Assembly (NCBI GenBank): GCA_026874595.1 | Contig: CM049312.1 | Location: forward strand, 70,648,929-70,712,928 | DNA from: Sipunculus nudus | Lineage: Eukaryota; Annelida; Sipuncula; Golfingiida; Sipunculidae | Length of the DNA: 64,000 nucleotides | Reading direction: 5' to 3' | In this document: positions 22,415-59,992 of the stretch, one piece after another | Numbering within the stretch: the first letter of the stretch is position 1 | Layout: each line of letters starts with the position of its first letter | Translations under genes and position numbers: made by a program | The notes under the pieces: model-generated | Told to the model about the DNA's origin: nothing | Database searches by the model: none | The model's input: only the letters and a program-made list of their open reading frames with translations

Positions 22415-22615
22415 TCTTCTATCTGGTCGCATGGAAGGATTGTGTAACCCATCAAGAGTATGCAGCGTTGCACGGTGATAGAACGTAGCTGACTTGTTCA
22501 GAAACGAAAGGAACCCGATCGGGTTCTTACAATCTCAATAATCAGAAAATGCGTGCGGGCTCATCGCCATTCATAATGATGTCTATAATTTTCTTACGGG
22601 GCGCCTATTCTGTAA

Positions 22616-22697
22616 GCAGTCTTGGCCAAGTGGTTTAAGCATTGCACTTGAAATCCAATGTGCTCTGCACGCGCAGGTTCGAATCCTGCAGGCTGCG
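22616..22697 (+). pseudogene. tRNA-Ser(TGA) copy 1, degenerate
   Basis: First unit of the array. Changes in the D arm and anticodon stem (TTGCA facing TCCAA) break pairing, while the T arm and acceptor are kept. Its AGA partner is missing because the array starts at 22415. Confidence 0.75.
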
Positions 22698-23626
22698 CTC
22701 TTTCGTTTTGCCAGCTTTTCTCTCAATTGCAAATACGTGTTATAATACCACATCATACAACATGCAAATTAAGAAAGCCTTTGTGAATGAAATCATAGCC
22801 GCAAATATTTTAAGGAGACATCTCATTTTACGGCCCATGGCCAAAACATACGACCAATAAAATACTGCGCGTCGAAATCGTCTGATGTGAACAGGGAGGA
22901 AATATAGGGCAACATGTTCATTTTTGATTGGTGGCAAAAGGTATGCATAATTGTTTGTCCTAAAACTGACGCTGCAAATTTTAAAAATCAAAATCTGTCT
23001 TTCAATCAGGCCATGTGTAGTTGAAATTTCTTAAGTAAATAATATCTGGATCGTTTGAAGAAAAAAAGAAGCTAGATGCGATTCCCCATTGCATGCAAAG
23101 AACGGCACCAAGATGCTGAAGATACCACTTCTGAATGACAAATGCATAATACATGCTTGATTTTTCAAGATATTAATGAACCGCTTTTCCATATTTTGCT
23201 TTCGGTATGGCTTATTTTCACTTCATTAAAAGAAAATTACAAAAGCCGTGTAATACCGTGTTTCATTCTTTGAGCCATTACGACCCTGATAAACCTTCCA
23301 AGACAATGATTGGGCGAAAAGAATTAAAATGAGTCTTTTACCAGAGAAATACGTGCAAACATATCCTTTTCTATTTAAAAAGTCATCAATTTTTAAAAAA
23401 TGCGAAAACCCTCTGTTTATTTGTGCCTTGTAACTTCACCGGTGCACGAGTAGTGTCTGCGACTGTTGAGAATACCGAAAATGGAATGACTACAGAAGAA
23501 AGTATCCTCATAGGGCGAAGATGTTAAAAATGAATAATAGATACCGATCAGCTCTTAACATGTGCGCAGAAAAATAGGAATGCTTATGAAATTCATTTTC
23601 CTTATCGCAATGAAAATGTAACAAAA

Positions 23627-23708
23627 CGCAGTCGGCAGGAATCCAACCTGCGCGGGCAGAGCCCAATAGAATTCTAGTCTATCGCCTTAACCACTCGGCC
23701 TCGACTGC
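23627..23708 (-). pseudogene. tRNA-Ser(AGA) copy 1, degenerate
   Basis: The T-loop core is altered (ATCCAA in place of TTCGAA on the plus strand), the D-stem/acceptor junction has a substitution, and the anticodon loop has lost an A. Anticodon AGA is still readable. Confidence 0.7.
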
Positions 23709-23935
23709 TGTTTAGCACGTCAACACACATCTTGTCTTCTATCTGGTCGCATGGAAGGATTGTGTAACCCATCACGAGTATGCAGCGTTGCACCGTGATA
23801 AAACGTAGCTGACTTGTTCAGAAACGAAAGGAACCGGATTGGGTTCTTACAATCTCAATAATCAGAAAATGCGTGCGGGTTCATCGACATTCATAATGAT
23901 GTCTATAATTTTCACACGGGGCGCCTATTCTGTAA

Positions 23936-24010
23936 GCAGTCTTGGCCGAGTGGTTAAGGCGTTGGACTTGATATCCAATGTGCTCTGCACGCGCTGGTTC
24001 GCAAGCTGCG
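23936..24010 (+). pseudogene. tRNA-Ser(TGA) copy 2, T arm deleted
   Basis: 5' half as consensus apart from one anticodon-loop change (TGATA). After GGTTCG the rest of the T arm is missing and the sequence resumes at the acceptor, so it cannot fold as a tRNA. Confidence 0.85.
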
Positions 24011-24946
24011 CTCTTTCGTTTTGCCAGCTTTTCTCTCAATTGCAAATACGTGTTATAATACCACATCATACAACATGCGAATTAAGAAAGCCTTTGTGAA
24101 TAAAATCATAGCTGCAATTATTTTAAGGGGGCATCTCATTTTACGGCCCATGGCCAAAACATACGACTAATAAAATACTGCGGGTCGAAATCGTCTGATG
24201 TGAACAGGGAGGAAATATAGGGCAACATGTTCATTTTTGATTGGTGGGAAAAGGTATGCATGTTTGTTAGTCTTAAAACTGACCCTGCAAATTTAAAAAA
24301 TGAAAATCTGTCATTTCAATCAGGCCATGTACATGTGTAGTTGGATTTTCTAAAGTAAATAATATCTGGATAGTTTGAAGAAAAAAAGAAGCTAGATGCG
24401 ATTCCCCATTGTATGCATAGAACGGCACCAAGATGCTGAAGATACCACTTCTGAATGACAAATGCATAATACATGCTTGATTTTTCAAGATATTAATGAA
24501 CCGCTTTTCCATATTTTGCTTTCGGTATGGCTTATTTTCACTTCATTAAAAGAAAATTACAAAAGCCGTGTAATACCGTGTTTCATTCTTTGAGCCATTA
24601 CGACCCTGATAAACCTTCCAAGACAATGATTGGGCGAAAAGAATTAAAATGAGTCTTTTACCAGAGAAATACGTGCAAACATATCCTTTTCTATTTAAAA
24701 AGTCATCAATTTTTAAAAAATGCGAAAACCCTCTGTTTATTTGTGCCCTGTAACTTCACCGGTGCACGAGTAGTGTCTGCGACTGTTGAGAATACCGAAA
24801 ATGGAATGACTACAGAAGAAAGTATTCTCATAGGGCGAAGATGTTAAAAATGAATAATAGATACCGATCAGCTCTTAACATGTGCGCAGAAAAATAGGAA
24901 TGCTTATGAAATTCATTTTCCTTATCGCAATGAAAATGTAACAAAA

Positions 24947-25028
24947 CGCAGTCGGCGGGATTCCAACCTGGGCGGGCAGAGCCCAATAGATTTCTAGTCT
25001 ATCGCCTTAACCACTCGGCCACGACTGC
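24947..25028 (-). pseudogene. tRNA-Ser(AGA) copy 2, mutated T arm
   Basis: Anticodon arm and D arm as consensus. The T arm has several substitutions (GGCGGGATTCCAACC on the plus strand), including the invariant TTCGA. Its divergent partner, after removing the LTR element, is the TGA copy at 30215 at exactly 227 bp. Confidence 0.7.
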
Positions 25029-25068
25029 TGCTTAGCAGGTCAACACACATCTGGTCTTCTATCTGGTC

Positions 25069-25072
25069 GCAT
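25069..25072. repeat. Target-site duplication GCAT, left copy
   Basis: GCAT here and at 30028-30031 flank the LTR element. Undisrupted units read GGTCGCATGGAAGG at this point with one GCAT. Confidence 0.9.
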
Positions 25073-25294
25073 TGAAGTGTTCTTTCGTTCGCTGCCATGC
25101 ACCGTACTTACATGAGAGGCAAAACACCAAGATACTTGGACTGGGCTTTATTCCATCAGCTTGTTCAACGCCGGTCACTCACGTCCTCTCGGAGTGGTGC
25201 CATATTCGATACTGGCGATTGCCAGTCAAACTACACGCATGCGCATTTACAATTTACGCAGCTAACCTCCCTGCATGCATGTAAACTCACTACA
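25073..25294 (-). repeat. 3' LTR of LTR retrotransposon (222 bp)
   Basis: On the minus strand it begins TGTAGTGAGTTTACATG and ends GAACACTTCA, the TG...CA ends expected of an LTR. It matches 29806-30027 over the full 222 bp with about ten differences. Confidence 0.92.
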
Positions 25295-25312
25295 TAATCC
25301 CCCTCCCTAAAT
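25295..25312 (-). other. Polypurine tract next to the 3' LTR
   Basis: Minus strand reads GATTTAGGGAGGGGGATTA directly before the LTR TG. Purine-rich tracts at this position prime plus-strand synthesis. Confidence 0.75.
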
Positions 25313-26451
25313 CCCCTTCACCGAAGCGACGGGTGGGAAACTCACAAACCTACATACCATATTACATATACATATATTATAAATAATACATTATGACATA
25401 GACGACCATCTAGGGTACGATCTCCTGCATACACGAGAGTTAAAATATTCCCAATTAATTCCATAACTGATCACCAGGAAGCGATCCTTGACCAGGCACC
25501 ATTATAAAATAAATACCAATATTAATTACAATAGTCGTCATCAGGGGGCGATCCCAAAATATTTCACAACACTTATCCCAGTGCATCTCAAAGTGACTGA
25601 ACACAGTATATATATCATTAGTATCATCCATAAGTGATTAATACTATAATCAAGAGTCGACCTAAATTATATATTAACCTCAAATAACCATGAGTATGAC
25701 CTCACATATCCATGAGTTTGACCTCAGCTCTCCCAGTTATCCATGAGTTTGACCTCATCCATTCATGAGTTTGACCTCATACATTCTAAATCCATTATAT
25801 TAGCCTTGAGGTTGACCTCAAACATTACTACTAACATATTTAACTGACCATCTACATCTACCCATTCTCAGCCACAAAATCCAAGTATATTACATATATT
25901 ATGAACATGATCATGAAACAAAAAACCACCACATTAAGTATAGCGTAATTTATGAGACTGTAGTGTTCTTTCCTTTTAATTATTATTTTTTTTTTTACTT
26001 TTCTTTAAACAGTGCATAGAAAATAATAATAAAAGTCTAAGTTATCATATAGATAACCATATCATAGTTTTGCACAAACTTCATAATAAATGAAGATCCC
26101 TATTCATCATAATGACAAAAATAACTGGTTTTCAGATCCAATTATGACCTTTATATTACAAAAAATCGTCTCGCTGTAACATAACTAAATTTCAGTGCAA
26201 GGGAAGTTTCAGGAGAAATACAAAATAAAAAAGATTGGGCGTGGTGGGAGTATCAAATACGGCGCCACTCCCTTTCTGCATTTCACTCCAATATCCATCT
26301 TTCGTACTAAAGCTAAAACATCCATAATAACAGGAATGAGGTATTCAGGGATTATTACTAACAATATTGATAATGTTTCAATCACTGATATTATAAACAC
26401 CAATATATCTTCCAATCAAGTATATAGATAATACCTCAACTAGTTATTCAT
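25313..26451. other. 3' untranslated region of the LTR element, with short tandem motif
   Basis: No ORF. At about 25690-25800 the motif CATGAGTTTGACCTCA (one variant with TATGACC) occurs four times at uneven spacing of roughly 25-40 bp. The rest is AT-rich, with a T run near 25985-25998. Confidence 0.5.
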
Positions 26452-27585
26452 TCAATTGGAATAAAGTTTCATTTGATCAACATGTTTTGTTTCTAAGCCC
26501 CGTGACGTTTGTACCTTAAAGTTTACGTCATTTAATCTCTCTTTCAACATAAAGGGACCTTCCCATCTGGGAGCAAGTTTGGCTGCAAATGATTTTTGCG
26601 CATTTGACATTGGGTGAGCTTTCAACAACACACGGTCCCCTTCCTTAAGATGACCCTTGCTTCTCTTCTGATCATCATAATTCTTATCCATTTCAGCTTG
26701 ATTTTTCAATTTTGCCACAACTGGATAGGTATAGGTAATCAGGTGAAAGAGTATTGCAAGAAAAGTGAAACTTGCCAAAAATGTAAACCTCAGTATAGAA
26801 AACCCATGGGATTGATGCAGCCAGTTACTGTTGTTGTTCTTTTTGGGAACCATTACCACTGGACTACGCCAAGGAGATTTTGACTCCTCAGTTATTCCAT
26901 TCTGTAACATTTCTTTAATCTGGTTCTCAGCTGCTTCTTTCTTAACTGGTGATAAATTATATGGCTTTGATTTATGTGGTTTCACATCCTCCTCAAGGAC
27001 ATTTTCATGTTCAAAAACATCCGTTTTACCAATCTTATCTGTAATTACATCAGAAATTTCAACTTTTAAAGCATCAATTATTTGATTCCGGTAATCGTCT
27101 TCTAAAGACAAGGGTTGGGCAAATGATACATCTTCTTTTATCTTAGATTCTGTTCCAGATACTCTGCCAACAAGTGGCCATTTTACCTTTGGTTTAAAAG
27201 ATGATAACCAATATTCACCAGCCGCAAAATCTACTGTAAGCCCCACTTCATAAATAAAGCTCTGGCCCAACAGCACTGGAGTTGACATATTTTCAACTAC
27301 AATGCATTCAACACAAGAAATGATCCCACAACATTCAATGTCAAGCAATATTACGCCAGCCGGAGCATACATTGAACCATCAAACCATTTCAGGGTAATA
27401 TTGTCTGGTCTGTCAATCTTGTCTTGAACTCCGAATTTTTTACAGACTTCTTCTGTTACTATAGTAACTGAGGCTCCTGAGTCTACAAGCCCCTGGGTTT
27501 CAAACCCGTTAATCTTTAATTCAACCAAAGGACCTAAATCCACTGAAAGTTTTTCACATTTTTTTAGGATACCATACATTAGCAA
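26452..27585 (-). pseudogene. pol remnant: protease, RT start and integrase tail fused by deletion
   Basis: Open for 377 codons. Residues 1-110 are an aspartic protease with LVDSGASVTIV (DSGA at 35-38), which cuts the Gag-Pol polyprotein. Residues about 230-253 are the start of RT (GITEESKSPWRSPVVMVPKK). Then RT, RNase H and the integrase core are missing, replaced by about 30 residues that are an inverted integrase piece read backwards. From about 288 on it is the integrase C-terminus (KEGDRVLLKAHP, APRWEGPFMLKERL, HVDQMKLY). The frame survives by chance. The protease looks intact; the fused protein has no polymerase. Confidence 0.88.
26733..26828 (+). pseudogene. Inverted fragment of integrase zinc-binding domain
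   Basis: On the plus strand, opposite to the rest of the element, the translation reads VKEYCKKSETCQKCKPQYRK followed by PMGLMQPV. That is the CxxC half of a Gypsy integrase HHCC finger and the residues that follow it. On the right it abuts the RT start and on the left the integrase tail. Confidence 0.75.
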
Positions 27586-27608
27586 GGGGGTTCAATTCAG
27601 ATTGTAAG

Positions 27609-28676
27609 TCAGACTGTATTCCCTGATTGCTCACTGAAGTGAATCTGACATTTTCTTCTCTTATTATTTACATGATTCTGCTCTTTATAATTACCACCAG
27701 AGTTCATTAATTTCGGACAATTTCGCTTGATGTGTCCCAGCTCACCACAACTAAAATATGCATCAGAATAGCGATATGAGGTCCGTTTGATGTCTCTGTT
27801 ATTGCTTACACCACCACTTGCAGGACATCTGTTGTCATTCCCAGCCCAGACGGACTTCTCATGGGCCAATTCGTAGGGGGCATGTGATTGCGTATGTGAC
27901 AAAACAAATGACGATATCTTTCTTGTGGCGCGCTTATGACAAGCATACTGGTCAGCCAACTCGGTTATTTCACACAAAGGTTTTCCAGCAGTGTCAGCCT
28001 CCATTAGTTTAAGGCGTAATGTTTCATCAGCTACACATTTTAACAGTTGTCCTATAATCAATTTCTCAAAAACTCTCACAAATGATGTATTTTCCATTAA
28101 CTCATCATCTGGCACTAGCCAGCAGTTCAGGTATTCACGTAGTCTAAACACAAAATCTGAAAATGTCTCTGAGCTATCTTTCTGTGCATTGTAATATTTC
28201 AATCTGTAATCTTCTGGAGTCAATTTATACCGTTTCAATATAGCCAGACGTACTTTCTGAAAGTCTGTTCTATCTTCATTTGAATGAGCATCATAGGCTT
28301 TCTGTGCAGGTCCCTTCAAATATGGTTCTAGGGCATCGCCCAATTTAGAGTCCTCAATTTCATATATACCCTTGGCCACATTTTCAAATGTTCTCAAATA
28401 AATTCTAATGTCATCCTCTTTACTGAGTTTTTGAATTTCTCTCAACCTAGGTAAACATCTCTGTTTACTGCTGTTATTATTCGCCATTACTGCCATCAAT
28501 TGTTCAAATTCACGTTTTCTCTGTCCCTCTAAATGTTCAAGAATGGCAAGAATGCTACTGTCAGGGCCAGCGAAAGTGGTGACTTTTTCTTCATTTTCTT
28601 TAATAACAGGTAGACTAGCAAGTGCTTCAATCTTATCTTCTTTTGTTTTCAACTGTGACAACTCTAGTCTATTCAT
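27609..28676 (-). CDS. gag: gag (capsid and nucleocapsid) of the LTR element
   Basis: 355 codons, open throughout. ATG at 28676 is the first ATG of a frame that opens near 28884. Residues about 90-250 resemble retrotransposon Gag capsid (RIYLRTFENVAKGIYEIED, FVFRLREYLNCWLV, QLLKCVADETLRLKLMEADT). Near residue 313 there is a nucleocapsid knuckle YFSCGELGHIKRNC: the last three zinc ligands of CX2CX4HX4C are present, but the first cysteine is tyrosine (codon TAT, one change from TGT). Gag would package the RNA. The pol frame follows after a 23-bp gap. Protein-coding integrity in a dead element suggests moderate age only; function is doubtful with the altered knuckle. Confidence 0.85.
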   Translation of the reverse strand: MNRLELSQLKTKEDKIEALASLPVIKENEEKVTTFAGPDSSILAILEHLEGQRKREFEQLMAVMANNNSSKQRCLPRLREIQKLSKEDDIRIYLRTFENVAKGIYEIEDSKLGDALEPYLKGPAQKAYDAHSNEDRTDFQKVRLAILKRYKLTPEDYRLKYYNAQKDSSETFSDFVFRLREYLNCWLVPDDELMENTSFVRVFEKLIIGQLLKCVADETLRLKLMEADTAGKPLCEITELADQYACHKRATRKISSFVLSHTQSHAPYELAHEKSVWAGNDNRCPASGGVSNNRDIKRTSYRYSDAYFSCGELGHIKRNCPKLMNSGGNYKEQNHVNNKRRKCQIHFSEQSGNTV

Positions 28677-28914
28677 ATGACAAAGTTCCGTCAGATAGTC
28701 ATTTGTATAATGTTGTAAATATTTCGGAGCGACTATAGAATTAGTGCCTCCAGGAATTGGTCTTGGTGAAGGAAAAAATTCTTGGTGTCTACGTGTAGTA
28801 TTTCCTACGTGGTTTCGTCTGTTATTCGTATGTCTGCTGTGTCTCCATCTGGTGGCGTTTCTGTGATGAGAAATTCATGATAAATTAGTACACATAACAT
28901 GCAATTGTGAAGCT

Positions 28915-28985
28915 CTTGACCGGGTCTCGAACCAGCAAGCGTGTGATAACATGTCCTATGCGCTACCATTGCGCTATAGAAGACG
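28915..28985 (-). pseudogene. tRNA-like sequence in the LTR-element leader
   Basis: Minus strand contains TATAGCGCAATGGTAGCGC (A-box/D-arm-like) and GCTGGTTCGAGACCC (B-box/T-arm-like) at tRNA spacing, with ends TCTT and AAGA that could pair. The anticodon stem does not pair convincingly and the T stem has a mismatch. It is most likely a tRNA relic or a SINE head. Confidence 0.4.
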
Positions 28986-29046
28986 AGCTGGAAGCCAGGG
29001 TTCGAAAGGGGATATTTGAATCTACTCTTTAGAATTGGTCGTAGTT

Positions 29047-29150
29047 GTTAAAACGAGGGTTAATTTTTGTTAAGCGTGTGCGTCGTCCGAGCGCTTCGCG
29101 CCCGGACGTCGAAAAAGCTTAAAAAAATTAACCCTCAGCCGTTTGTTAAC
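29047..29150. repeat. Long imperfect palindrome
   Basis: Outer arms AGGGTTAATTTTTGTTAAGC and GCTTAAAAAAATTAACCCT, inner arms GTCCgaGCGC and GCGCccGGAC around TTC. It could form a cruciform or a stable RNA hairpin. Confidence 0.75.
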
Positions 29151-29789
29151 TGCCTGCCACTAAACCGGACTCCGTCTCGCGCTTCGCGCGGACAAAGTGG
29201 AGTCACTGTTTTTTTTTGTAAACCCTAACCCTTGAAATACACCAAATATACGTTGGATAGCTGTGATCCGTGTGCATACAAATGCCTCGAGGGCGCAACA
29301 GAACGTATGTGAATGACGTAGGCAGGAAATGTGCACATAAGCTAAGTAGTGTAAACAAGCAGAGGGAGGAATCATGACGGATACGACAAGTGAAATCGCG
29401 TGAAGAAAGGATTAATTATACAATATTACGGGCTAAGATATAAGTGAAAAGGCTATAGGATACAAGTAATATGTATCTGTTGTGGATAAAAGAGTCCTGA
29501 ACGGTAGGCACTGCTTCTACAGTCGCACCACGGAATCTCTAATGGGTAGGCATGGATTCTATAGTCGCACCAATATTTCATACGGTCTTCCTTTCCAGCC
29601 ATTATGAAAAGTCAATACTATTATAAAGTTCATGAAAAAGTAAACAGTCCTCAAAGTCGACTAAACAAATTTTCCAATATGGCGACCTACCAGGAGTACC
29701 ACATGGTTCACACACGTGACTGTCTTGAACATACCGGGCGACCGTTGAATGCTTCCCTCCTCTCCTTCTCAAAGTCCCTGCATATTAAA

Positions 29790-29804
29790 CCACATTGGGC
29801 GCCA
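29790..29804 (-). other. Primer-binding site
   Basis: TGGCGCCCAATGTGG on the minus strand, one base inside the 5' LTR. TGGCGCC starts are standard primer-binding sites in LTR elements. I did not identify the tRNA partner. Confidence 0.8.
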
Positions 29805-29805
29805 T

Positions 29806-30027
29806 TGAAGTGTTCTTTCTTTCGCTGCCATGCACCGGACTTACATGAGAGGCAAAACACAAAGATACTTAGACTGGGCTTTATTACATCAGCTTGTTCA
29901 ACGCCGGTCACTCACGTCCTCTCGGAGTGGTGCCATATTCGATACTGGCGATTGCCAGTCAAACTACTAGCATGCGCATTTACAATTTGGGCAGCTAACC
30001 TCCCTGCATACATGTAAACTCACTACA
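29806..30027 (-). repeat. 5' LTR of LTR retrotransposon (222 bp)
   Basis: Same length and ends as 25073-25294. The outer flank is GCAT (30028-30031), then the tRNA unit resumes with GGAAGGATTGTG. Confidence 0.92.
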
Positions 30028-35241: not shown

Positions 35242-35323
35242 CGCAGTCGGCAGGATTCGAACCTGCGCGGGCAGAGCCCAATAGATTTCTAGTCTATCGC
35301 CTTAACCACTCGGCCACGACTGC
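35242..35323 (-). tRNA. tRNA-Ser-AGA: tRNA-Ser(AGA) copy 6, consensus
   Basis: Consensus; partner TGA at 35551. Confidence 0.97.
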
Positions 35324-35550
35324 TGCTTAGCACGTCAACACACATCTGGTCTTCTATCTGGTCGCATGGAAGAATTGTGTAACCCATCACGAGTATGCAG
35401 CGTTGCACCGTGATAGAACGTAGCTGACTTGTTCAGAAACGAAAGGAACCCGATTGGGTTCTTACAATCTCAATAATCAGAATATGCGTGCGTGCTCATC
35501 GACATTCATAATTATGTCTATAATTTTCACACAGGGCGCCTATTCTGTAA

Positions 35551-35632
35551 GCAGTCTTGGCCGAGTGGTTAAGGCGTTGGACTTGAAATCCAATGTGCTC
35601 TGCACGCGCAGGTTCGAATCCTGCAGGCTGCG
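35551..35632 (+). tRNA. tRNA-Ser-TGA: tRNA-Ser(TGA) copy 7, consensus
   Basis: Consensus; the spacer before it has the AATTATGTC variant also found before 40111, 44112 and 46780. Confidence 0.97.
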
Positions 35633-36575
35633 CTCTTTCGTTTTGCCAGCTTTTCTCTCAAATGCAAATACGTGTTATAATACCACATCATACAACATGC
35701 AGATTAAGAAAGACTTTGTGAATGAAATCATAGCCGCAATTATTTTAAGGAGACATCTCATTTTGCGGCCCATGACCAAAACATACGACCAATAAAATAC
35801 TGCGTGTCGAAATCGTCTGATGTGAACAGGGAGGAAATATAAGGCAACATGTTCATGTTTGATTGGTGGCAAAAGGTATGCGTGTTTGTTAGTCTTAAAA
35901 CTGACGCTGCAATTTTTAAAAATGAAAATCTGTCATTTCAATAAGGCCATGTGTAGTTGGATTTTCTAAAGTAAATAATATCTGGATAGTTTGAAGAAAA
36001 AAAGAAGCTAGATGCGATTCCCCATTGCATGCACAGAACGGCACCAAGATGCTGAAGATACCACTTCTGAATGACAAATGCATAATACATGCTTGATTTT
36101 TCAAGATATCAATGAATCGCTTTTCATGCTGATTTCCAATATTTTGCTTTCGGTATGGCTTATTTTAACTACATTAAAAGAAAATTACAAAGCCGTCTAA
36201 TACCGTGTTTTATTCATTCGAGCCATTACGACCCTGATAAACCTTCCAATACAATGATTGGGCGAAAAGAATTAAAATGAGTCTTTTACCAGAGAAATAC
36301 GAGCAAACATATCCTTTTCTATTTAAAAAGTCATCAATTTAAAAAAAAATGCGAAAACCCCCTGTTTATTTGTGCCTTGTAACTTCACCGGTGCACGAGT
36401 AGTGTCTGCGACTGTTGAGAATACCGAAAATGGAATGACTACAGAAGAAAGTATCCTCATAGGGCGAAGATGTTAAAAATGAATAAAAGATACCGATCAG
36501 CTCTTAACATGTGCGCAGAAAAATAGGAAAGCTTATGAAATTCATTTTCCTTATCGCAATGAAAATGTAACAAAA

Positions 36576-36657
36576 CGCAGTCGGCAGGATTCGAACCTGC
36601 GCGGGCAGAGCCCAATAGATTTCTAGTCTATCGCCTTAACCACTCGGCCACGACTGC
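36576..36657 (-). tRNA. tRNA-Ser-AGA: tRNA-Ser(AGA) copy 7, consensus
   Basis: Consensus; partner TGA at 36885. Confidence 0.97.
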
Positions 36658-36884
36658 TGCTTAGCACGTCATCACACATCTGGTCTTTTATCTGGTCGCA
36701 TGGAAGGATTGTGTAACCCATCACGAGTATGCAGCGTTGCACCGTGATAGAACGTAGCTGACTTGTTCAGAAACGAAAGGAACCCGATTGGGTTCTTACA
36801 ATCTCAATAATCAGAACATGCGTGCGTGCTCATCGACATTCATAATGATGTCTATAATTTTCACACAGGGCGCCTATTCTGTAA

Positions 36885-38777: not shown

Positions 38778-38859
38778 GCAGTCTTGGCCGAGTGGTTAAG
38801 GCGTTGGACTTGAAATCCAATGTGCTCTGCACGCGCAGGTTCGAATCCTGCAGGCTGCG
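38778..38859 (+). tRNA. tRNA-Ser-TGA: tRNA-Ser(TGA) copy 10, consensus, no AGA partner
   Basis: Consensus. Upstream sequence is kept only back to GGAACCCG, so the hairpin and TATA-like box remain but the AGA gene is absent. Confidence 0.97.
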
Positions 38860-39801
38860 CTCTTTCGTTTTGCCAGCTTTTCTCTCAATTGCAAATACGT
38901 GTTATAATACCACATCATACAACATGCAAATTAAGAAAGCCTTTGTGAATGAAATCATAGCCGCAATTATTTTAAGGAGACATCTCATTTTGCGGCCCAT
39001 GACCAAAACAAACGACCAATAAAATACTGCGTGTCGAAATCGTCTGATGTGAACAGGGAGGAAATATAAGGCAACATGTTCATGTTTGATTGGTGGCAAA
39101 AGGTATGCGTGTTTGTTAGTCTTAAAACTGACGCTGCAATTTTTAAAAATGAAAATCTGTCATTTCCATAAGGCCATGTGTAGTTGGATTTTCTAAAGTA
39201 ATTAATATCCGGATAGTTTGAAGAAAAAAAGAAGCTAGATGCGATTCCCCATTGCATGCATAGAACGGCACCAAGATGCTGAAGATACCACTTCTGAATG
39301 ACAAATGCATAATACATGCTTGATTTTTCAAGATAACAATGAATCGCTTTTCATGCTGATTTCCAATATTTTGCTTTCGGTATGGCTTATTTTAACTACA
39401 TTAAAAGAAAATTACAAAGCCGTCTAATACCGTGTTTTATTCATACGAGCCATTACGACCCTGATAAACCTACCAATACAATGATTGGGCGAAAAGAATT
39501 AAAATGAGTCTTTTACCAGAGAAATACGAGCAAACATATCCTTTTCTATTTAAAAAGTCATCAATTTTAAAAAAATGCGAAAACCCTCTGTTTATTTGTG
39601 CCCTGTAACTTCACCGGTGCACGAGTAGTGTCTGCGACTGTTGAGAATACCGAAAATGGAATGACTACAGAAGAAAGTATCCTCATAGGGCGAAGATGTT
39701 AAAAATGAATAATAGATACCGATCAGCTCTTAACATGTGCGCAGAAAAATAGGAAAGCTTATGAAATTCATTTTCCTTATCGCAATGAAAATGTAACAAA
39801 A

Positions 39802-39883
39802 CGCAGTCGGCAGGATTCGAACCTGCGCGGGCAGAGCCCAATAGATTTCTAGTCTATCGCCTTAACCACTCGGCCACGACTGC
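39802..39883 (-). tRNA. tRNA-Ser-AGA: tRNA-Ser(AGA) copy 9, consensus
   Basis: Consensus; partner TGA at 40111. Confidence 0.97.
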
Positions 39884-42551: not shown

Positions 42552-42778
42552 TGCTTAGCACGTCATCACACATCTGGTCTTTTATCTGGTCGCATGGAAG
42601 GATTGTGTAACCCATCACGAGTATGCAGCGTTGCACCGTGATAGAACGTAGCTGACTTGTTCAGAAACGAAAGGAACCCGATTGGGTTCTTACAATCTCA
42701 ATAATCAGAACATGCGTGCGTGCTCATCGACATTCATAATGATGTCTATAATTTTCACACAGGGCGCCTATTCTGTAA

Positions 42779-42860
42779 GCAGTCTTGGCCGAGTGGTTAA
42801 GGCGTTGGACTTGAAATCCAATGTGCTCTGCACGCGCAGGTTCGAATCCTGCAGGCTGCG
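42779..42860 (+). tRNA. tRNA-Ser-TGA: tRNA-Ser(TGA) copy 13, consensus
   Basis: Consensus; first unit of the second 4001-bp block. Confidence 0.97.
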
Positions 42861-43802
42861 CTCTTTCGTTTTGCCAGCTTTTCTCTCAATTGCAAATACG
42901 TGTTATAATACCACATCATACAACATGCAAATTAAGAAAGCCTTTGTGAATGAAATCATAGCCGCAATTATTTTAAGGAGACATCTCATTTTGCGGCCCA
43001 TGACCAAAACAAACGACCAATAAAATACTGCGTGTCGAAATCGTCTGATGTGAACAGGGAGGAAATATAAGGCAACATGTTCATGTTTGATTGGTGGCAA
43101 AAGGTATGCGTGTTTGTTAGTCTTAAAACTGACGCTGCAATTTTTAAAAATGAAAATCTGTCATTTCCATAAGGCCATGTGTAGTTGGATTTTCTAAAGT
43201 AATTAATATCCGGATAGTTTGAAGAAAAAAAGAAGCTAGATGCGATTCCCCATTGCATGCATAGAACGGCACCAAGATGCTGAAGATACCACTTCTGAAT
43301 GACAAATGCATAATACATGCTTGATTTTTCAAGATAACAATGAATCGCTTTTCATGCTGATTTCCAATATTTTGCTTTCGGTATGGCTTATTTTAACTAC
43401 ATTAAAAGAAAATTACAAAGCCGTCTAATACCGTGTTTTATTCATACGAGCCATTACGACCCTGATAAACCTACCAATACAATGATTGGGCGAAAAGAAT
43501 TAAAATGAGTCTTTTACCAGAGAAATACGAGCAAACATATCCTTTTCTATTTAAAAAGTCATCAATTTTAAAAAAATGCGAAAACCCTCTGTTTATTTGT
43601 GCCCTGTAACTTCACCGGTGCACGAGTAGTGTCTGCGACTGTTGAGAATACCGAAAATGGAATGACTACAGAAGAAAGTATCCTCATAGGGCGAAGATGT
43701 TAAAAATGAATAATAGATACCGATCAGCTCTTAACATGTGCGCATAAAAATAGGAAAGCTTATGAAATTCATTTTCCTTATCGCAATGAAAATGTAACAA
43801 AA

Positions 43803-43884
43803 CGCAGTCGGCAGGATTCGAACCTGCGCGGGCAGAGCCCAATAGATTTCTAGTCTATCGCCTTAACCACTCGGCCACGACTGC
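43803..43884 (-). tRNA. tRNA-Ser-AGA: tRNA-Ser(AGA) copy 12, consensus
   Basis: Consensus; partner TGA at 44112. Confidence 0.97.
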
Positions 43885-44111
43885 TGCTTAGCACGTCAAC
43901 ACCCATCTGGTCTTCTATCTGGTCGCATGGAAGGATTGTGTAACCCATCACGAGTATGCAGCGTTGCACCGTGATAGAACGTAGCTGACTTGTTCAGAAA
44001 CGAAAGGAACCCGATTGGGTTCTTACAATCTCAATAATCAGAACATGCGTGCGTGCTCATCGACATTCATAATTATGTCTATAATTTTCACACAGGGCGC
44101 CTATTCTGTAA

Positions 44112-44193
44112 GCAGTCTTGGCCGAGTGGTTAAGGCGTTGGACTTGAAATCCAATGTGCTCTGCACGCGCAGGTTCGAATCCTGCAGGCTGCG
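44112..44193 (+). tRNA. tRNA-Ser-TGA: tRNA-Ser(TGA) copy 14, consensus
   Basis: Consensus; 4001 bp after its counterpart at 40111. Confidence 0.97.
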
Positions 44194-45136
44194 CTCTTTC
44201 GTTTTGCCAGCTTTTCTCTCAATTGCAAATACGTGTTATAATACCACATCATACAACATGCAGATTAAGAAAGACTTTGTGAATGAAATCATAGCCGCAA
44301 TTATTTTAAGGAGACATCTCATTTTGCGGCCCATGACCAAAACATACGACCAATAAAATACTGCGTGTCGAAATCGTCTGATGTGAACAGGGAGGAAATA
44401 TAAGGCAACATGTTCATGTTTGATCGGTGGCAAAAGGTATGCGTGTTTGTTAGTCTTAAAACTGACGCTGCAATTTTTAAAAATGAAAATCTGTCATTTC
44501 AATAAGGCCATGTGTAGTTTGATTTTCTAAAGTAAATAATATCTGGATAGTTTGAAGAAAAAAAGAAGCTAGATGCGATTCCCCATTGCATGCACAGAAC
44601 GGCACCAAGATGCTGAAGATACCACTTCTGAATGACAAATGCATAATACATGCTTGATTTTTCAAGATATCAATGAATCGCTTTTCATGCTGATTTCCAA
44701 TATTTTGCTTTCGGTATGGCTTATTTTAACTACATTAAAAGAAAATTACAAAGCCGTCTAATACCGTGTTTTATTCATTCGAGCCATTACGACCCTGATA
44801 AACCTTCCAATACAATGATTGGGCGAAAAGAATTAAAATGAGTCTTTTACCAGAGAAATACGAGCAAACATATCCTTTTCTATTCAAAAAGTCATCAATT
44901 TAAAAAAAAATGCGAAAACCCCCTGTTTATTTGTGCCTTGTAACTTCACCGGTGCACGAGTAGTGTCTGCGACTGTTGAGAATACCGAAAATGGAATGAC
45001 TACAGAAGAAAGTATCCTCATAGGGCGAAGATGTTAAAAATGAATAAAAGATACCGATCAGCTCTTAACATGTGCGCAGAAAAATAGGAAAGCTTATGAA
45101 ATTCATTTTCCTTATCGCAATGAAAATGTAACAAAA

Positions 45137-45218
45137 CGCAGTCGGCAGGATTCGAACCTGCGCGGGCAGAGCCCAATAGATTTCTAGTCTATCGCCTTAA
45201 CCACTCGGCCACGACTGC
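45137..45218 (-). tRNA. tRNA-Ser-AGA: tRNA-Ser(AGA) copy 13, consensus
   Basis: Consensus; partner TGA at 45446. Confidence 0.97.
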
Positions 45219-45445
45219 TGCTTAGCACGTCATCACACATCTGGTCTTTTATCTGGTCGCATGGAAGGATTGTGTAACCCATCACGAGTATGCAGCGTTG
45301 CACCGTGATAGAACGTAGCTGACTTGTTCAGAAACGAAAGGAACCCGATTGGGTTCTTACAATCTCAATAATCAGAACATGCGTGCGTGCTCATCGACAT
45401 TCATAATGATGTCTATAATTTTCACACAGGGCGCCTATTCTGTAA

Positions 45446-45527
45446 GCAGTCTTGGCCGAGTGGTTAAGGCGTTGGACTTGAAATCCAATGTGCTCTGCAC
45501 GCGCAGGTTCGAATCCTGCAGGCTGCG
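45446..45527 (+). tRNA. tRNA-Ser-TGA: tRNA-Ser(TGA) copy 15, consensus
   Basis: Consensus; 4001 bp after 41445. Confidence 0.97.
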
Positions 45528-46470
45528 CTCTTTCGTTTTGCCAGCTTTTCTCTCAATTGCAAATACGTGTTATAATACCACATCATACAACATGCAGATT
45601 AAGAAAGACTTTGTGAATGAAATCATAGCCGCAATTATTTTAAGGAGACATCTCATTTTGCGGCCCATGACCAAAACATACGACCAATAAAATACTGCGT
45701 GTCGAAATCGTCTGATGTGAACAGGGAGGAAATATAAGGCAACATGTTCATGTTTGATTGGTGGCAAAAGGTATGCGTGTTTGTTAGTCTTAAAACTGAC
45801 GCTGCAATTTTTAAAAATGAAAATCTGTCATTTCAATAAGGCCATGTGTAGTTTGATTTTCTAAAGTAAATAATATCTGGATAGTTTGAAGAAAAAAAGA
45901 AGCTAGATGCGATTCCCCATTGCATGCACAGAACGGCACCAAGATGCTGAAGATACCACTTCTGAATGACAAATGCATAATACATGCTTGATTTTTCAAG
46001 ATATCAATGAATCGCTTTTCATGCTGATTTCCAATATTTTGCTTTCGGTATGGCTTATTTTAACTACATTAAAAGAAAATTACAAAGCCGTCTAATACCG
46101 TGTTTTATTCATTCGAGCCATTACGACCCTGATAAACCTTCCAATACAATGATTGGGCGAAAAGAATTAAAATGAGTCTTTTACCAGAGAAATACGAGCA
46201 AACATATCCTTTTCTATTTAAAAAGTCATCAATTTAAAAAAAAATGCGAAAACCCCCTGTTTATTTGTGCCTTGTAACTTCACCGGTGCACGAGTAGTGT
46301 CTGCGACTGTTGAGAATACCGAAAATGGAATGACTACAGAAGAAAGTATCCTCATAGGGCGAAGATGTTAAAAATGAATAAAAGATACCGATCAGCTCTT
46401 AACATGTGCGCAGAAAAATAGGAAAGCTTATGAAATTCATTTTCCTTATCGCAATGAAAATGTAACAAAA

Positions 46471-46552
46471 CGCAGTCGGCAGGATTCGAACCTGCGCGGG
46501 CAGAGCCCAATAGATTTCTAGTCTATCGCCTTAACCACTCGGCCACGACTGC
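46471..46552 (-). tRNA. tRNA-Ser-AGA: tRNA-Ser(AGA) copy 14, consensus
   Basis: Consensus; partner TGA at 46780. Confidence 0.97.
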
Positions 46553-46779
46553 TGCTTAGCACGTCATCACACATCTGGTCTTTTATCTGGTCGCATGGAA
46601 GGATTGTGTAACCCATCACGAGTATGCAGCGTTGCACCGTGATAGAACGTAGCTGACTTGTTCAGAAACGAAAGGAACCCGATTGGGTTCTTACAATCTC
46701 AATAATCAGAACATGCGTGCGTGCTCATCGACATTCATAATTATGTCTATAATTTTCACACAGGGCGCCTATTCTGTAA

Positions 46780-52107: not shown

Positions 52108-54552
52108 CAAGTGAACCATGGGTCATGACGCTCAGCTGCCAAGCATGACCTGTGACATCATGGACTGAGATTCACAACTTCCAGTCAAATTTAAAAGAAC
52201 CAATTTGCCAATTTGTTGAAAATTTTCTATGACAACAGAAATATATATCACCTATGTCTGGTTAAAACACTGTGAATTGATGGTCTGAGGAAAATGCATG
52301 ATAGTTAAGCTATCAGGAACTAGTCAACAGCTTGCTTGAAACCTGTCAGTCTCAAAAGGAACACCACAAAGGGCAAATATAAGATCAAAATATATAGCAA
52401 AAATCAAGGAAATACATGCAAGAATTATTGAGAAACAGGTGTTTCTGTATGAATGTTTATTCAATACAAGCCAACTGTACTGCACTTTTATAAATGATGG
52501 TAATATTTATTCAGAAATATTTGACCCAATCATTTACAAGATTACATTTAAATATACATCCAACTGCATTCACTTTAACTGTTCTTGAGATAATATGATC
52601 AAAAGGAATTAAAGGATGTTTGCCTGGTGGCCATATTGGACTTCTGACAAGTCTGAAATCAGACAAAAACATTCTCTAAATCGGACCAAACATTAAAGAA
52701 AAATTACTGAAACTGCACTGAAGAAAGAATTTCTAAGGTGGCTAACTGGCAGACATAATGGATTTCTGACAAGTATGACATTTGATATCCCACATTCTCC
52801 AATAAGAGACCAAACTTGGGGCAAATTATCCAGTAAAAATTGCCCAAAATAATTCAAAAGGCATGTCCAGGCCCTCATATCAGATTTATAGATATGCAAT
52901 TGTAAAAAATGTAAGTCCAGTATTTTTTATTATCACTCTGCTTTTCAATGGGGTCAGCAGGGTAGGTAAACTGCCAAACCCGAAAGAAAAGAAATGCAGA
53001 AAGCATGACTAAGAGCCTTGAAATAAATCAAAAAGCCATCCTAAATCAAGTTACACATCCACATATTATGAGAACAAACACTTGCTTTTATATGTGGTGA
53101 TATATATTAAAATATTCAGATATCTAGGAAACTAAGTTTATTGCTAGGATTCCATAAAATAAACTGCAAAATGTTCCCATCATCTTATAAATCAGTAGCT
53201 AAACCTTAATACTATACTCTCATAGTCTTAATGCCTGTCTGAAGCATTCTGACAACAGTGTTTTTGTTATGAAGTAACAGGTACTTATCACTGAGCCTTA
53301 TCACTTAATAGGCTGATACAAAAGGGAGTCATATGTCACCAGTGTCACTCACAATTACAGCCACACAGGGACATGTACCAGCTGGAGTGGGATGGTTATA
53401 TATACAAGAAAAATAGAGAGGGTCTATAAAATAAGTAATTGTGAACATCCCTGACCTATGACCTTGGCCTTTTGCCCATATATCAACTGGATTCTTTCTA
53501 AATGATGGGTAACTATTAACCACTTAGATCTGATGTAATTACTTGGCAACCAATGGGTGAATAACTTTGACCTGCAACCTTTAACCTGCTGACCAGCTGA
53601 CCCCAAAATCAATAAGTTATTTATTCAAGCAAAAAGACCCATAAATATGAAGTTTGAGTGAAACTGAGTGATGCATAGATGTGGCATATGTGAAAGACTG
53701 AAGGTTTGGGTTGAACAGTTACACTTGAAATATGCTCACAAGCATTTAGAACAATTAAATATTGTGACCTTGACCTTTGACTTTTTGACCTCATCATCAA
53801 TAGGCTTCTTCCCTTATTGGTAGGTAAGCCATATATGACAGATGGAAGGTACAGATTGAAAAGTTTGCCTGAAAATGACTCCACGCAAGAAGTGGGTGCT
53901 GTGAACGCGACCTTTGTCCTCAAAATCAACAGGTCTTTTCCCCTGTTGGCAGAGAAGCGATATCAGTGCTGGAAGGTTTGGAATGAAAAGTCAAGCTTGA
54001 AATGTGTCCACAACCTTTTCAAAGAAGTGGATCCTGTGACCCTGACCTTTGACCTTGTTACCTCAAAATCTATAGGATTCTTTTCCAACTTAGTAGGTTA
54101 GCTATATGTGAAAGATCAAAGAATTGGGATGAAAGGGTTGGCTTAAAATGCATCCACAGGCTTTTCAAAGAAGAGGCTCCTGTGACCTTGACCTTTGACC
54201 TTTTGACCTAAAAAAAATTATGGTTCTTCCCCTGTTGGTAGGTGAGCTGTATGTGAAAGATGGAAGGTTTTGGATGAAAATTTTGTCTCAAAGAGTTATT
54301 TCTGGGGGGTGCAAACACACCCCATAACTTCGAGAATATAGGTCGCAGTGACCTAATTTCAGCTTTGCAAGGAGATCTTTTTATAACCTCTTAGACTGCA
54401 TAGGGTTCATGGCCCTAGCCCCTACGGTTACGATTTGTGCCCTGCTAACGGACGGACGGCCGGCCGGATGGCCGGCCGGACGGACAGACGGAAGGACGAC
54501 GGACAAAGACCCATCGCTATAGCCCAGCATGACTGAAAGTCAGCTAAGCTAA
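52108..54552. mobile_element. Family A element A3, inserted in the tRNA array
   Basis: Starts CAAGTGAACC and ends CAGCTAAGCTAA; 2445 bp, without element B. Relative to an intact unit about 470 bp of array sequence is missing around it (TTTGAAGAA on the left, ATGAATAATAG on the right), so insertion was accompanied or followed by a deletion. No tRNA gene was removed. Confidence 0.65.
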
Positions 54553-54655
54553 AAATAAATGAATAATAGATACCGATCAGCTCTTAACAAGTGCGCAGAA
54601 AAATAGGAATGCTTATGAAATTCATTTTCCTTATCGCAATGAAAATGTAACAAAA

Positions 54656-56297: not shown

Positions 56298-56347
56298 GCA
56301 GTCTTGGCCGAGTGGTTAAGGCGTTGGACTTGAAATCCAATGTGCTC
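56298..56347 (+). pseudogene. tRNA-Ser(TGA) copy 22, 5' half only
   Basis: Consensus through the anticodon arm to TGTGCTC, then fused to the 5' end of an AGA gene in opposite orientation (CACTCGGCCACGACTGC). Confidence 0.9.
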
Positions 56348-56364
56348 CACTCGGCCACGACTGC
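56348..56364 (-). pseudogene. tRNA-Ser(AGA) fragment, first 17 nt
   Basis: Only the acceptor 5' strand and part of the D arm remain, joined to the half TGA gene. The spacer to its right is complete. Confidence 0.85.
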
Positions 56365-56591
56365 TGCTTAGCACGTCAACACACATCTGGTCTTCTATCT
56401 GGTCGCATGGAAGGATTGTGTAATCCGTCACGAGTATGCAGCGTTGCACCGTGATAGAACGTAGCTGACTTGTTCAGAAACGAAAGGAACCCGATTGGGT
56501 TCTTACAATCTCAATAATCAGAAAATGCGTGCGTGCTCATCGACATTCATAATGATGTCTATAATTTTCACACAGGGCGCCTAATCTGTAA

Positions 56592-56673
56592 GCAGTCTTG
56601 GCCGTGTGGTTAAGGCGTTGGACTTGAAATCCAACGTGCTCTGCACGCGCAGGTTCGAATCCTGCAGGCTGCG
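56592..56673 (+). tRNA. tRNA-Ser-TGA: tRNA-Ser(TGA) copy 23, two substitutions
   Basis: A to T at the conserved D-loop start (GCCGTGTGG), which normally pairs with T8, and T to C after the anticodon stem. Stems are kept; activity is uncertain. Its unit is cut at about 56766. Confidence 0.75.
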
Positions 56674-56929
56674 CTTTTTCGTTTTGCCAGCTTTTCTCTC
56701 AATTGCAAATACGTGTTATAATACCACATCATACAACATGCAATTTAAGAAAGCCTTTGTGAAACCTTTCGGTATGGCTTATTTTAACTACATTAAAAGA
56801 AAATTACAAAGCCGTCTAATACCATGTTTTATTCATTCCTAAAAAATCTCAATAATCAGAAAATGCGTGCGGGTTCATCGACATTCATAATGATGTCAAT
56901 AATTTTCACACGGGGCGCCTATTCTGTAA

Positions 56930-57011
56930 GCAGTCTTGGCTGAGTGGTTAAGGCGTTGGACTTGAAATCCAATGTGCTCTGCACGCGCAGGTTCGAAACC
57001 TGCAGGCTGCG
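56930..57011 (+). tRNA. tRNA-Ser-TGA: tRNA-Ser(TGA) copy 24, two mild substitutions
   Basis: GGCTGAG in the D stem gives a G-T wobble, and TTCGAAACC changes one T-loop base. All stems can form. No AGA partner. Confidence 0.82.
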
Positions 57012-57950
57012 CTCTTTCGTTTTGCCAGCTTTTCTCTCAATTGCAAATACGTGTTATAATACCACATCATACAACATGCGAATTAAGAAAGCCTTTGTGA
57101 ATGAAATCATAGTCGCAATTATTTTAAGGAGACATCTCATTTTGCGGCCCATGGCCAAAACATACCACCAATAAAATACTGCGGGTCGAAATCGTCTGAT
57201 GTGAACAGGGAGGAAATATAGGGCAACATGTTCAATTTTGATTGGTGGCAAAAGGTATGCGTGTTTGTGAGTCTTAAAACTGACGCTGCAAATTTTAAAA
57301 ATCAAAATCTGTCATTTCAATCAGGCCATGTGTAGTTGAAATTTCTTAAGTAAATAATATCTGGATAGTTTGAAGAAAAAAAGAAGCTAGATGCGATTCC
57401 CCATTGCATGCATAGAACGGCACCAAGATGCTGAAGATACCACTCCTGAATGGCAAATGCATAATACATGCTTGATTTTTCAAGATATTAATGAATCGCT
57501 TTTCATGCTGATTTCCATATTTTGCTTTCGGTATGGCTTATTTTAACTACATTAAAAGAAAATTACAAAAGCCGTCTAATACCGTGTTTCATTCAATTGA
57601 GCCATTACGACCCTGATAAATCTTCCAAGACAATGATTGGGCGAAAAGAATTAAAATGAGTCTTTTACCAGAGAAATACGTGCAAACATATCCTTTTGTA
57701 TCTAAAAAGTCATCAATTTAAAAAAAATGCGAAAACCCTCTGTTTATTTGTGCCTTGTAACTTCACCGGTGCACGAGTAGTGTCTGCGACTGTTGAGAAT
57801 ACCGAAAATGGAATGACTACAGAAGAAAGTATCCTCAAAGGGTGAAGATGTTAAAAATGAATAATAGATACCGATCAGCTCTTAACATGTGCGCAGAAAA
57901 ATAGGAATGCTTATGAAATTCATTTTCCTTATTGCAATGAAAATGTAACA

Positions 57951-59602
57951 CAAGTGACCCATGGGTCATGACGCTCAGCTGCCAAGCATGACCTGCGACA
58001 TCATGGGCTGCAATTCACAACTTCTAGTAAAATTGCAGAACCTATATGCCAATTTTGTTTAAACTTTCTACATTGCCATAAATTCTTATCATATATGTCT
58101 GGTTAAAACATAGTGAATGATGGTCTGAGGCAAAATGTATGGTTGTTGAGATATCAGGAACTAATCCCACAGCTTGCTCGATACCTGTCAGTCTCAAAAG
58201 GAATACCACACAGGCCACATATAAGATCAACATATAGCAAAAGATCAAGGAAATCCATGCAAGAATTATTGTGAAACGGGTGCTTCCATATTAATTTTTA
58301 TTCAATACAAGCCAACTGTACTGAGCTTTCATAAATGATGGTCATATTTATTAAGAAATCTTTGACCCAATGCAAGATTACATTAATATACATCCCACTG
58401 CATCCACTTTAATAGTTCTTGAGATAATATGCTCTAAAGGAATTTAAAGATGGCGTCCTGGTGGCCATATTGAATTTCTGACAGGTCGGAAATTGAACAA
58501 CAAACATCCTCTAAATCACAGAAACTTTGCCTTTTGCCCACATATCAATTGGATTCTTTCTAAATGATGGTAACTACTAACCACTTACATCTGGCCGAGT
58601 GTAATTACTTGGCAACCAATGAGTGAATAACTTAGACCTGCAACCTTTAACCTCCTGACCAGCTGATCTCAAAATTAATTAGTTATTTCTTCACGCAAAA
58701 AGACCCATAAATATGAAGTCTGAATCAAATTCAGTGATGCATAGATGTGGCATATGTGAGAGACTGAAGGTTTGGGTTGAACAGTTTCACTTGAAATATG
58801 TTCAGAAGCATTTAGAACAATATTGTGACCTTGACCTTTGACCTTTTGAACTCAACATCAATAGGCTTCTTCTCCTATTGGTAGGGAAGCCATATATGAC
58901 AGATGGAAAGTATAGATTGAAAAGTTTGCTGAAAATGACTCCACGCAAGAAGAGGGTGTTGTGAACTTGACCTTTGACCTCAAAATCAACAGGTCTTTTC
59001 CCCTGTTGGCAGAGAAGCGATGTCAGTGCTGAAAGTTTGGAATGAAAGGTCTAGCTTGAAATGTGTCCACAACCTTTTCAAAGAAGTGGAGCCTTGAGAC
59101 CTCAACATCTATAGGATTCTTCTCCCTCTTAGTAGGTGAGCTATATGTGAAAGATCAAAGAATTGGGATGAAAGGTTTGGCTTAAAATGCATCCCTAGGC
59201 TTTTCAAAGAAGTTGGTTCTGTGACCTTGACCTATGACCTTGTGACCTCAAAATAATTATGGTTCTTCCACTGTTGGTAGGTGAGCTGTATGTGAAAGAT
59301 GGAAATTTTGGCCAAAAAGAATTATTTCTGGGGGGTGCAAACACACCCTATAACTTCGAGAATATAGGTCGCAGTGACCTAATTTCAGGTTTGCACGGAG
59401 ATCTTTTTAGAACCTCTAAGACTGCATAGGGTTCATGGCCCTAGCCCCTATGGTTACGATTTGTGCCCTGCTAACGGACGGACGGACGGCCGGCCGGACG
59501 GCCGGCCGGATGGCCGGCCGGATGGCCGGCCGGACAGACGGAAGGACGCCGGACAAAGGCCCATCACTATAGCCCAGCATGACTGAAAGTCAGCTGAGCT
59601 AA
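57951..59602. mobile_element. Family A element A4, short copy beside a tRNA gene
   Basis: Starts CAAGTGACCC and ends CAGCTGAGCTAA; 1652 bp, about 750 bp shorter than A2 through internal deletion near 58520. The GACGG-type tract is expanded into repeated GGCCGGCCGGA blocks (59481-59536). It sits 3 bp from the 3' end of the AGA gene at 59606; without it the gap to the preceding TGA gene is 942 bp, one base from normal. Confidence 0.68.
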
Positions 59603-59605
59603 AAA

Positions 59606-59687
59606 CGCAGTCGGCAGGATTCGAACCTGCGCTGGGAGAGCCCAAAAGATTTCTAGTCTATTGCCTTAACCACTCGGCCACGACTGC
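59606..59687 (-). pseudogene. tRNA-Ser(AGA) copy 21, mutated
   Basis: Anticodon AGA and T arm kept. A mismatch is present in the anticodon stem (ATAGA facing TCTTT), and the variable arm and D stem also differ. The oligo-T terminator on its minus-strand 3' side is partly supplied by the A4 end. Confidence 0.65.
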
Positions 59688-59924
59688 TGCTTAGCACGTC
59701 TACACACATCTGGTCTTCTATCTGGTCGCATGGAAGGATTGTGTAGCCCATCACGAGTATGCAGCGTTGCACCGTGATAGAACGTAGCTGACTTGTTCAG
59801 AAACGAAAGGAACCTGATTGGGTTCTTACAATCTCAATAATCAGAAAATGCGTGCGTGCTCATCGACATTAATAATGATGTCTATAATTTTCACATGGGG
59901 CGCCCATGCTGTAAGTAGTCTTGG

Positions 59925-59992
59925 CCGAGTGGTTAAGGCGTTAGACATGAAATACAATGTGCTCTGCACGCGCAGGTTTAAATCCTGCAGGC
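59925..59992 (+). pseudogene. tRNA-Ser(TGA) copy 25, truncated, last of the array
   Basis: Substitutions in the acceptor (GTAG), anticodon stem and T loop (GGTTTAAATCC). The sequence breaks off after CTGCAGGC and continues into a core repeat. Confidence 0.85.

Follow-up and report, generated by a model that had tools for sequence, protein, structure and literature searches.

Why eukaryotes retain large redundant arrays of transfer RNA (tRNA) genes is an open question, and it is raised afresh by a locus of the sipunculan annelid Sipunculus nudus at which a pair of serine tRNA genes is repeated many times over. The window analyzed here is a stretch of 64,000 nucleotides from contig CM049312.1 (C7 below; C7:70648929-70712928) of assembly GCA_026874595.1, which comprises 1,426,538,692 bases in 153 contigs. 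An earlier note on this stretch had proposed a tandem array, in one orientation, of a cassette carrying tRNA-Ser(TGA) on the plus strand and tRNA-Ser(AGA) on the minus strand, and this is borne out by ARAGORN, Rfam, blastn and an alignment of the units. We put at roughly 80% the probability that the locus is a nuclear tRNA array served by RNA polymerase III (Pol III), which arose from a local serine pair, was amplified by unequal crossing-over and homogenized in its core, with drift as the driving force.

Organization of the array and its genes

A blastn comparison of one unit with the window delineated a head-to-tail array with a period of 1334 bp at 22412-59992; the right end proposed earlier agrees with this, and the left end (22415) lies 3 bp off. 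In the complete unit, typified by the 1334 bp at 35551..36884 (plus strand; blastn and unit alignment), tRNA-Ser(TGA) occupies the plus strand and tRNA-Ser(AGA) the minus strand, with their 5' ends 227 bp and their 3' ends 943 bp apart. The divergent spacer between the 5' ends, whose length had been given correctly, is exemplified by 35324..35550 (from the ARAGORN gene ends) and the long spacer between the 3' ends by 35633..36575 (Rfam scan and genome search); the long spacer matches no Rfam family at the gathering threshold, and the unit as a whole has a GC content of 39-40%. While the period of 1334 bp stands, the cassette is less uniform than the earlier description implied. The 17 full-length units that could be aligned include one of 1320 bp and sixteen of 1333-1335 bp (partial units were excluded from the substitution counts), the array is split by three insertions (25073-30027, 52111-54556 and 57954-59601), and it holds 25 TGA pieces as against 20 AGA pieces, some of the AGA partners having been lost through deletions and insertions within the array.

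ARAGORN identifies 42 tRNA-Ser genes in the array (22 TGA on the plus strand and 20 AGA on the minus strand) and the Rfam tRNA model 45; the three that it adds (at 23936, 56298 and 59915) are TGA copies that are broken. The consensus copies, typified by 35551..35632 (TGA, plus strand) and 35242..35323 (AGA, minus strand), score 66 and 65 bits, respectively, against a cut-off of 29, and combine the serine anticodon, the tRNA fold and the covariance score expected of eukaryotic tRNA-Ser(TGA) and tRNA-Ser(AGA). A letter-for-letter comparison showed that 17 of the 25 TGA and 16 of the 20 AGA pieces are identical to the consensus, precisely as had been counted before. Apart from the two examples given, the exact TGA copies start at 31549, 32884, 36885, 38219, 38778, 40111, 41445, 42779, 44112, 45446, 46780, 48114, 49448, 50327, 51660 and 54965 (plus strand), and the exact AGA copies at 31240, 32575, 33908, 36576, 37910, 39802, 41136, 42470, 43803, 45137, 46471, 47805, 49139, 54656 and 55989 (minus strand). 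The two genes align with each other over ~82 bp and share no flanks in most units, and we hence reject the idea that the pair arose through an inverted duplication.

The internal A and B boxes are both kept in 19/25 TGA and 18/20 AGA copies, including the consensus genes. An oligo-T stop had been ascribed to every gene: this holds for all 20 AGA copies, which have a T4 terminator at +1, but falls short for the TGA copies, 23 of 25 of which have an oligo-T within 30 bases; in 20 of these it lies at +9. A stretch that we take to be TATA-like lies ~30 bp upstream of each gene, and in the AGA copies it reads GATAAAAG in 10/20 and GATAGAAG in the other 10. Because these Pol III requirements have been kept, and because the genes are letter-identical to pairs found outside the array on C7 (see below), at least some of the core serine genes are probably transcribed. 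By the wobble rules Ser-AGA and Ser-TGA together can read every UCN codon, and the core copies would add to the capacity in Ser-UCN tRNA.

The units are not equally well preserved along the array. In the alignment the inner 15 units (31549-54965) are mutually 98-100% identical, the unit at 30215 is ~97% identical to them and the leftmost ~94%. The left edge (22412..25077; blastn, alignment and copy check) is decayed, with units ~94% like the core and mutated tRNA copies at 22616, 23627, 23936 and 24947; the right edge (56298..59992; Rfam, blastn and copy check) is both decayed and rearranged, and its copies at 56298, 56592, 56930, 59606 and 59915 are either truncated or mutated. The two-isoacceptor cassette with its canonical genes, terminators and A and B boxes is sound, but the special character that had been attributed to the shared 227-bp spacer lacks support. 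This spacer varies like the rest of the unit (23/227 sites vs 100/943 in the long spacer over 17 units, and 17/227 vs 45/943 over the inner 15), for which reason we reject a conserved regulatory spacer, and the spacers of identical gene pairs elsewhere on C7, 645 and 569 bp long, are unrelated to it.

Single pairs and further arrays in the same genome

We searched the assembly for Ser-TGA genes, with 40 of 172 candidates scored. Beyond the array, the candidates scored include two exact copies, at distances of ~36 kb and ~1 Mb from its right side on C7. Three near-copies at 99% identity lie at other places of C7, and more distant ones (93-96%) on C1, C3, C15 and C16. Each of the two exact copies adjoins an exact Ser-AGA gene: in the pair at C7:71706526 the genes face each other head to head across 645 bp, and in the pair at C7:70744567 they lie on a single strand at a distance of 569 bp. 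Outside the genes themselves, the flanks of both pairs are unlike the array. The 943-bp spacer is exclusive to the array, with 25 genome matches that all fall at C7:70671626-70706881 (21/21 candidates scored). Hence, C7 has at least three instances of neighboring TGA and AGA genes, of which the array is one amplified case, and the existence of identical pairs with unrelated flanks indicates that the arrayed serine genes are ordinary sequences. A U3 small nucleolar RNA gene lies ~0.9 kb from the single pair near 71.71 Mb of C7 (418-637 of the stretch L113).

A second tandem array, which came to light when the assembly was first searched (63 of 100,426 candidates scored), is located on C9 and combines tRNA-Lys(TTT) and tRNA-Met(CAT) on the same strand of a 1682-bp unit. 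It has at least 77 full units between C9:40,605,435 and 40,749,499 (~144 kb, 1 kb of which was unread) and continues further; counted against one reference unit its exact copies number 69 for Lys and 49 for Met, and it includes a long block duplication with an offset of 34,574 bp. On C3 and C8, Lys(TTT) genes identical to those of this array occur singly (within 3 kb), in flanks that are unrelated to it. A third array, at C1:3704880-3746437, was marked by five Ser-TGA-like matches that are almost evenly spaced with a period of ~10.4 kb. Its unit carries Ser(CGA) and Tyr(GTA), the latter with a 16-nt intron, on the minus strand and Ser(GCT) and Ala(TGC) on the plus strand. Two adjacent units are 99.5% alike over 2.1 kb, and three more at the predicted places each contain Tyr, Ser(GCT) and Ala and are 99.95-100% like the first in their aligned parts; the Tyr/Ser(GCT)/Ala part was seen in 4/4 units inspected. 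Thus, this genome has at least three tandem tRNA arrays, and the serine anticodons AGA, TGA, CGA and GCT are all arrayed. As the Lys/Met and Ser/Tyr/Ser/Ala arrays share the genome with it, the amplification is not specific to the Ser-UCN pair.

The searches also touched contigs of other kinds. C61 is bacterial: it has an isocitrate dehydrogenase (Icd) that is at most 71% identical to its best 80 bacterial relatives, which are diverse, as well as a class A RNase P RNA. C62, C66, C69, C71, C72, C75, C89 and C90 carry tRNAs of the same score and are possibly cobionts too. The small contigs C115 and C121 have a compact Lys/Asn cluster (7 genes in ~730 bp) along with Thr and Leu tRNAs, with bacterial-looking spacing.

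Origin, constraint and competing explanations

The architecture described above is best explained by a scenario in which an ordinary local pair of Ser-AGA and Ser-TGA genes was captured within a 1334-bp segment, which would then have been amplified in place through unequal crossing-over, with homogenization of the core. Edge units would escape homogenization and hence drift, accept insertions and die. As unrelated Lys+Met and Ser+Tyr+Ser+Ala cassettes have been amplified in the same genome, the driver is most likely recombination together with drift in copy number rather than demand for a serine-rich product.

Selection on the arrayed genes would leave them less variable than the spacers. In the inner 15 units 2/164 tRNA sites have changed as against 62/1170 spacer sites (p = 0.018), while the changes exclusive to the two leftmost full units number 11/164 and 48/1170, respectively (p = 0.15). 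The ratio of tRNA to spacer changes differs between these sets (2:62 vs 11:48; p = 0.007), though the division into inner and leftmost units was chosen after seeing the data. Several observations weigh against the scenario given above. 1) When all 17 units are counted, conservation of the genes does not exceed that of the spacers (13/164 vs 110/1170; p = 0.67). 2) The Lys/Met genes are at least as variable as their spacer (19/146 vs 144/1526; p = 0.19), which gives no indication of selection on single copies. 3) The 20-bp flanks of the serine genes are not clearly hypervariable, either in the 17 units (7/80 vs 116/1090) or in the inner 15 (6/80 vs 56/1090; p = 0.31), and therefore give no sign of transcription-linked mutation. 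The flanks of the Lys/Met genes do show a weak sign of it (13/80 vs 131/1446; p = 0.046). In sum, the substitution counts are mixed, and the constraint on the serine genes is weak.

The alternative that fares best, albeit an improbable one, is a silent satellite-like repeat, i.e. a heterochromatic array whose genes would be mostly untranscribed, as those of the SYY array are in most tissues of Arabidopsis. The homogenized core, the decayed edges and the insertions of mobile elements would all be expected of such a repeat, as would the lack of constraint over all 17 serine units or the 77 Lys/Met units. Against this, the ratio of observed to expected CpG is 1.06 in the core of the array but 0.44 in its left flank; the right flank has 0.83, and the two inserts of a dispersed element have 0.26-0.43. 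CpG sites in the array also show no excess of transitions (5/110 vs 19/416 other C/G sites), nor do they mutate faster in the Lys/Met array (10/118 vs 33/529). The high CpG content of the core, combined with the absence of a transition excess, thus gives no sign of heavy germline methylation; this argument is a weak one, because the left flank is rich in repeats and the two single-pair loci are also CpG-high (0.94 and 0.86).

A somewhat more speculative proposal takes the three arrays together. Several tRNA families, namely all four serine anticodons, Tyr, Ala, Lys and a Met, might be kept in dedicated arrays in the manner of Entamoeba beside single copies, the single genes serving housekeeping needs and the arrays perhaps forming a reserve under separate regulation, e.g. 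for oocytes or secretory tissue. We consider this doubtful as a whole. Three arrays with different genes coexist in one assembly with singles of identical tRNA sequence (the Ser pair and Lys); transcripts of the arrayed and the single copies could be distinguished by their leaders and trailers, and a reserve supply and a by-product of recombination can therefore be directly told apart by experiment.

The earlier note had suggested that the array raises serine tRNA dosage for a serine-rich product. In its general form, namely that a high copy number is selected to supply Ser-UCN tRNA to a special tissue or secreted protein, this explanation can draw on the intact tRNA genes of the core and on the inner-unit constraint and the contrast with the leftmost units given above. 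It can also point to the arraying of all four serine anticodons and to the precedent of SYY in Arabidopsis root-tip cells, as set out in the accessible part of PMC12308677. We nevertheless hold it unlikely. The bigger Lys/Met array exists without constraint on its genes, the Ser/Tyr/Ser/Ala array coexists with both, and the two leftmost serine units decay freely. Further, for the bivalve Ostrea edulis the accessible text of PMC9679248 gives 1019 tRNA-Ser genes, which the authors did not see clustered, and a proteome in which they noted no surplus of serine. Upkeep of the array by dosage selection is possible, but the unconstrained Lys/Met array speaks against a reason specific to serine.

Fainter still is the prospect of a chromatin boundary or a repeat binding CTCF or TFIIIC, with the tRNA product secondary, as has been proposed for the human 1q23.3 repeat. 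The architecture is what would speak for it, since the human units are 98% alike and the human repeat has long terminal repeats (LTRs) of retroelements at its edges (PMC4041453, from the portion accessible). Bins of 50 bp that are free of variation do occur in the serine unit (positions 51-100 and 849-898).

An over-expansion of a few real units during assembly is very improbable. It might be invoked for the two adjoining three-unit blocks of 4001 bp at 38778..46779, which differ at 2 positions in a block comparison, and for some units that are identical or one base apart. The blocks represent either a recent block duplication or an assembly duplication, and are the part of the array most exposed to assembly error. 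However, the 17 units differ by up to ~6%, several of them have private variants, deletions and insertions, which disfavor a wholesale artefact, and the array sits inside an 84-Mb contig. A bacterial, phage or plasmid origin can be dismissed, as the unit is unmatched in 72,556 plasmid and 50,697 phage records; a 24-base word from the spacer likewise found no match in viral contigs.

Insertions and neighboring repeats

The first of the insertions, at 25073..30027 on the minus strand, is a copy of an LTR retrotransposon with terminal repeats of ~225 bp that are 95.6% alike and a 4-bp target duplication (GCAT). It lies ~45 bp upstream of the AGA gene at 24947-25028 and retains remnants resembling gag, a protease and an integrase C-terminus in Pfam comparisons. 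A reverse-transcriptase fragment (Pfam) is found at 21605-22141, just beyond the left end of the array. The second insertion, at 52111..54556, is a dispersed element with internal tandem repeats, at which positions 452-926 of the unit are absent, and a shorter second copy of it at 57954..59601 sits where the AGA gene at 59606-59687 has its oligo-T terminator. Two cases, an LTR insertion close to the start of a gene (~45 bp upstream) and a dispersed element at a terminator, do not suffice to support a transposon preference for tRNA genes.

Further copies of the dispersed element, which reaches up to ~2.4 kb and resembles Helentrons and Helentron-associated elements (HINEs), occur in the window at 10072-13572 (interrupted) and 18983-21389; together with the two in the array, which as element copies span 52106-54567 and 57947-59608 (the latter shortened), this makes four. 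The accessible part of PMC7492417 describes bivalve HINEs as having central tandem repeats, a 3' palindrome, an oligo-T target and no target duplication; in the inserts seen here, internal repeats and an oligo-A/T site are accompanied by a short inverted repeat on the 3' side. Repeats of the type GACCTTTGACCTTGTGACC occur in addition to the HINE-like elements, both being features suggestive of bivalve molluscs. Finally, 1797-8741 of the window is taken up by arrays of a 287-bp repeat, the consensus of which, from 14 copies, has zero CpG.

Comparison with known tandem tRNA arrays

Tandem arrays of tRNA genes are known from other organisms, the unit of Xenopus being 3.18 kb long. A divergent Ser-TGA/Ser-AGA tandem array was not found described among the openly licensed papers listed, but its basic features are those of the class, i.e. 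head-to-tail units containing tRNA genes that are homogenized along their whole length, inclusive of the spacer. The clusters of Nematostella and teleosts comprise at least fifty tRNA genes, and the survey that describes them tabulates head-to-head pairs; in its accessible text these clusters are treated generally and not as this serine pair (PMC2888827). The variable-number repeat at human 1q23.3 shares with our array the embedded tRNA genes, the similarity of the units and the LTRs alongside, yet its unit is 7.3 kb long, GC-rich and CTCF-binding, whereas that of Sipunculus is 1.33 kb with 39-40% GC (human data from the accessible part of PMC4041453). In Entamoeba the tandem units hold up to five tRNA genes, and the 25 arrays of E. 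histolytica, some with Ser-GCT and Ser-TGA, contain almost all of its tRNA genes, with short tandem repeats between the genes (PMC2652664, in the text accessible). Sipunculus departs from this pattern in having lone Lys genes on C3 and C8 and single Ser pairs on C7.

A close match in core-and-edge structure is provided by SYY of Arabidopsis thaliana, which consists of tandem units of tDNA-Ser/Tyr/Tyr with a homogenized core and variable flanks richer in pseudogenes (PMC12308677, as far as its accessible text goes). Both systems have units with several tRNA genes including serine, and both combine a homogenized core with decayed flanks. The Sipunculus array differs in its two divergent serine isoacceptors and its 1.33-kb unit; SYY, the tissue expression of which is known, is DNA-methylated and silent in most tissues, and the Sipunculus core, with an observed/expected CpG of 1.06 and no CpG excess of transitions, shows no sign of heavy CpG decay. 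Thus, the serine array of Sipunculus is a further example of the known tandem tRNA arrays, with an interesting composition.

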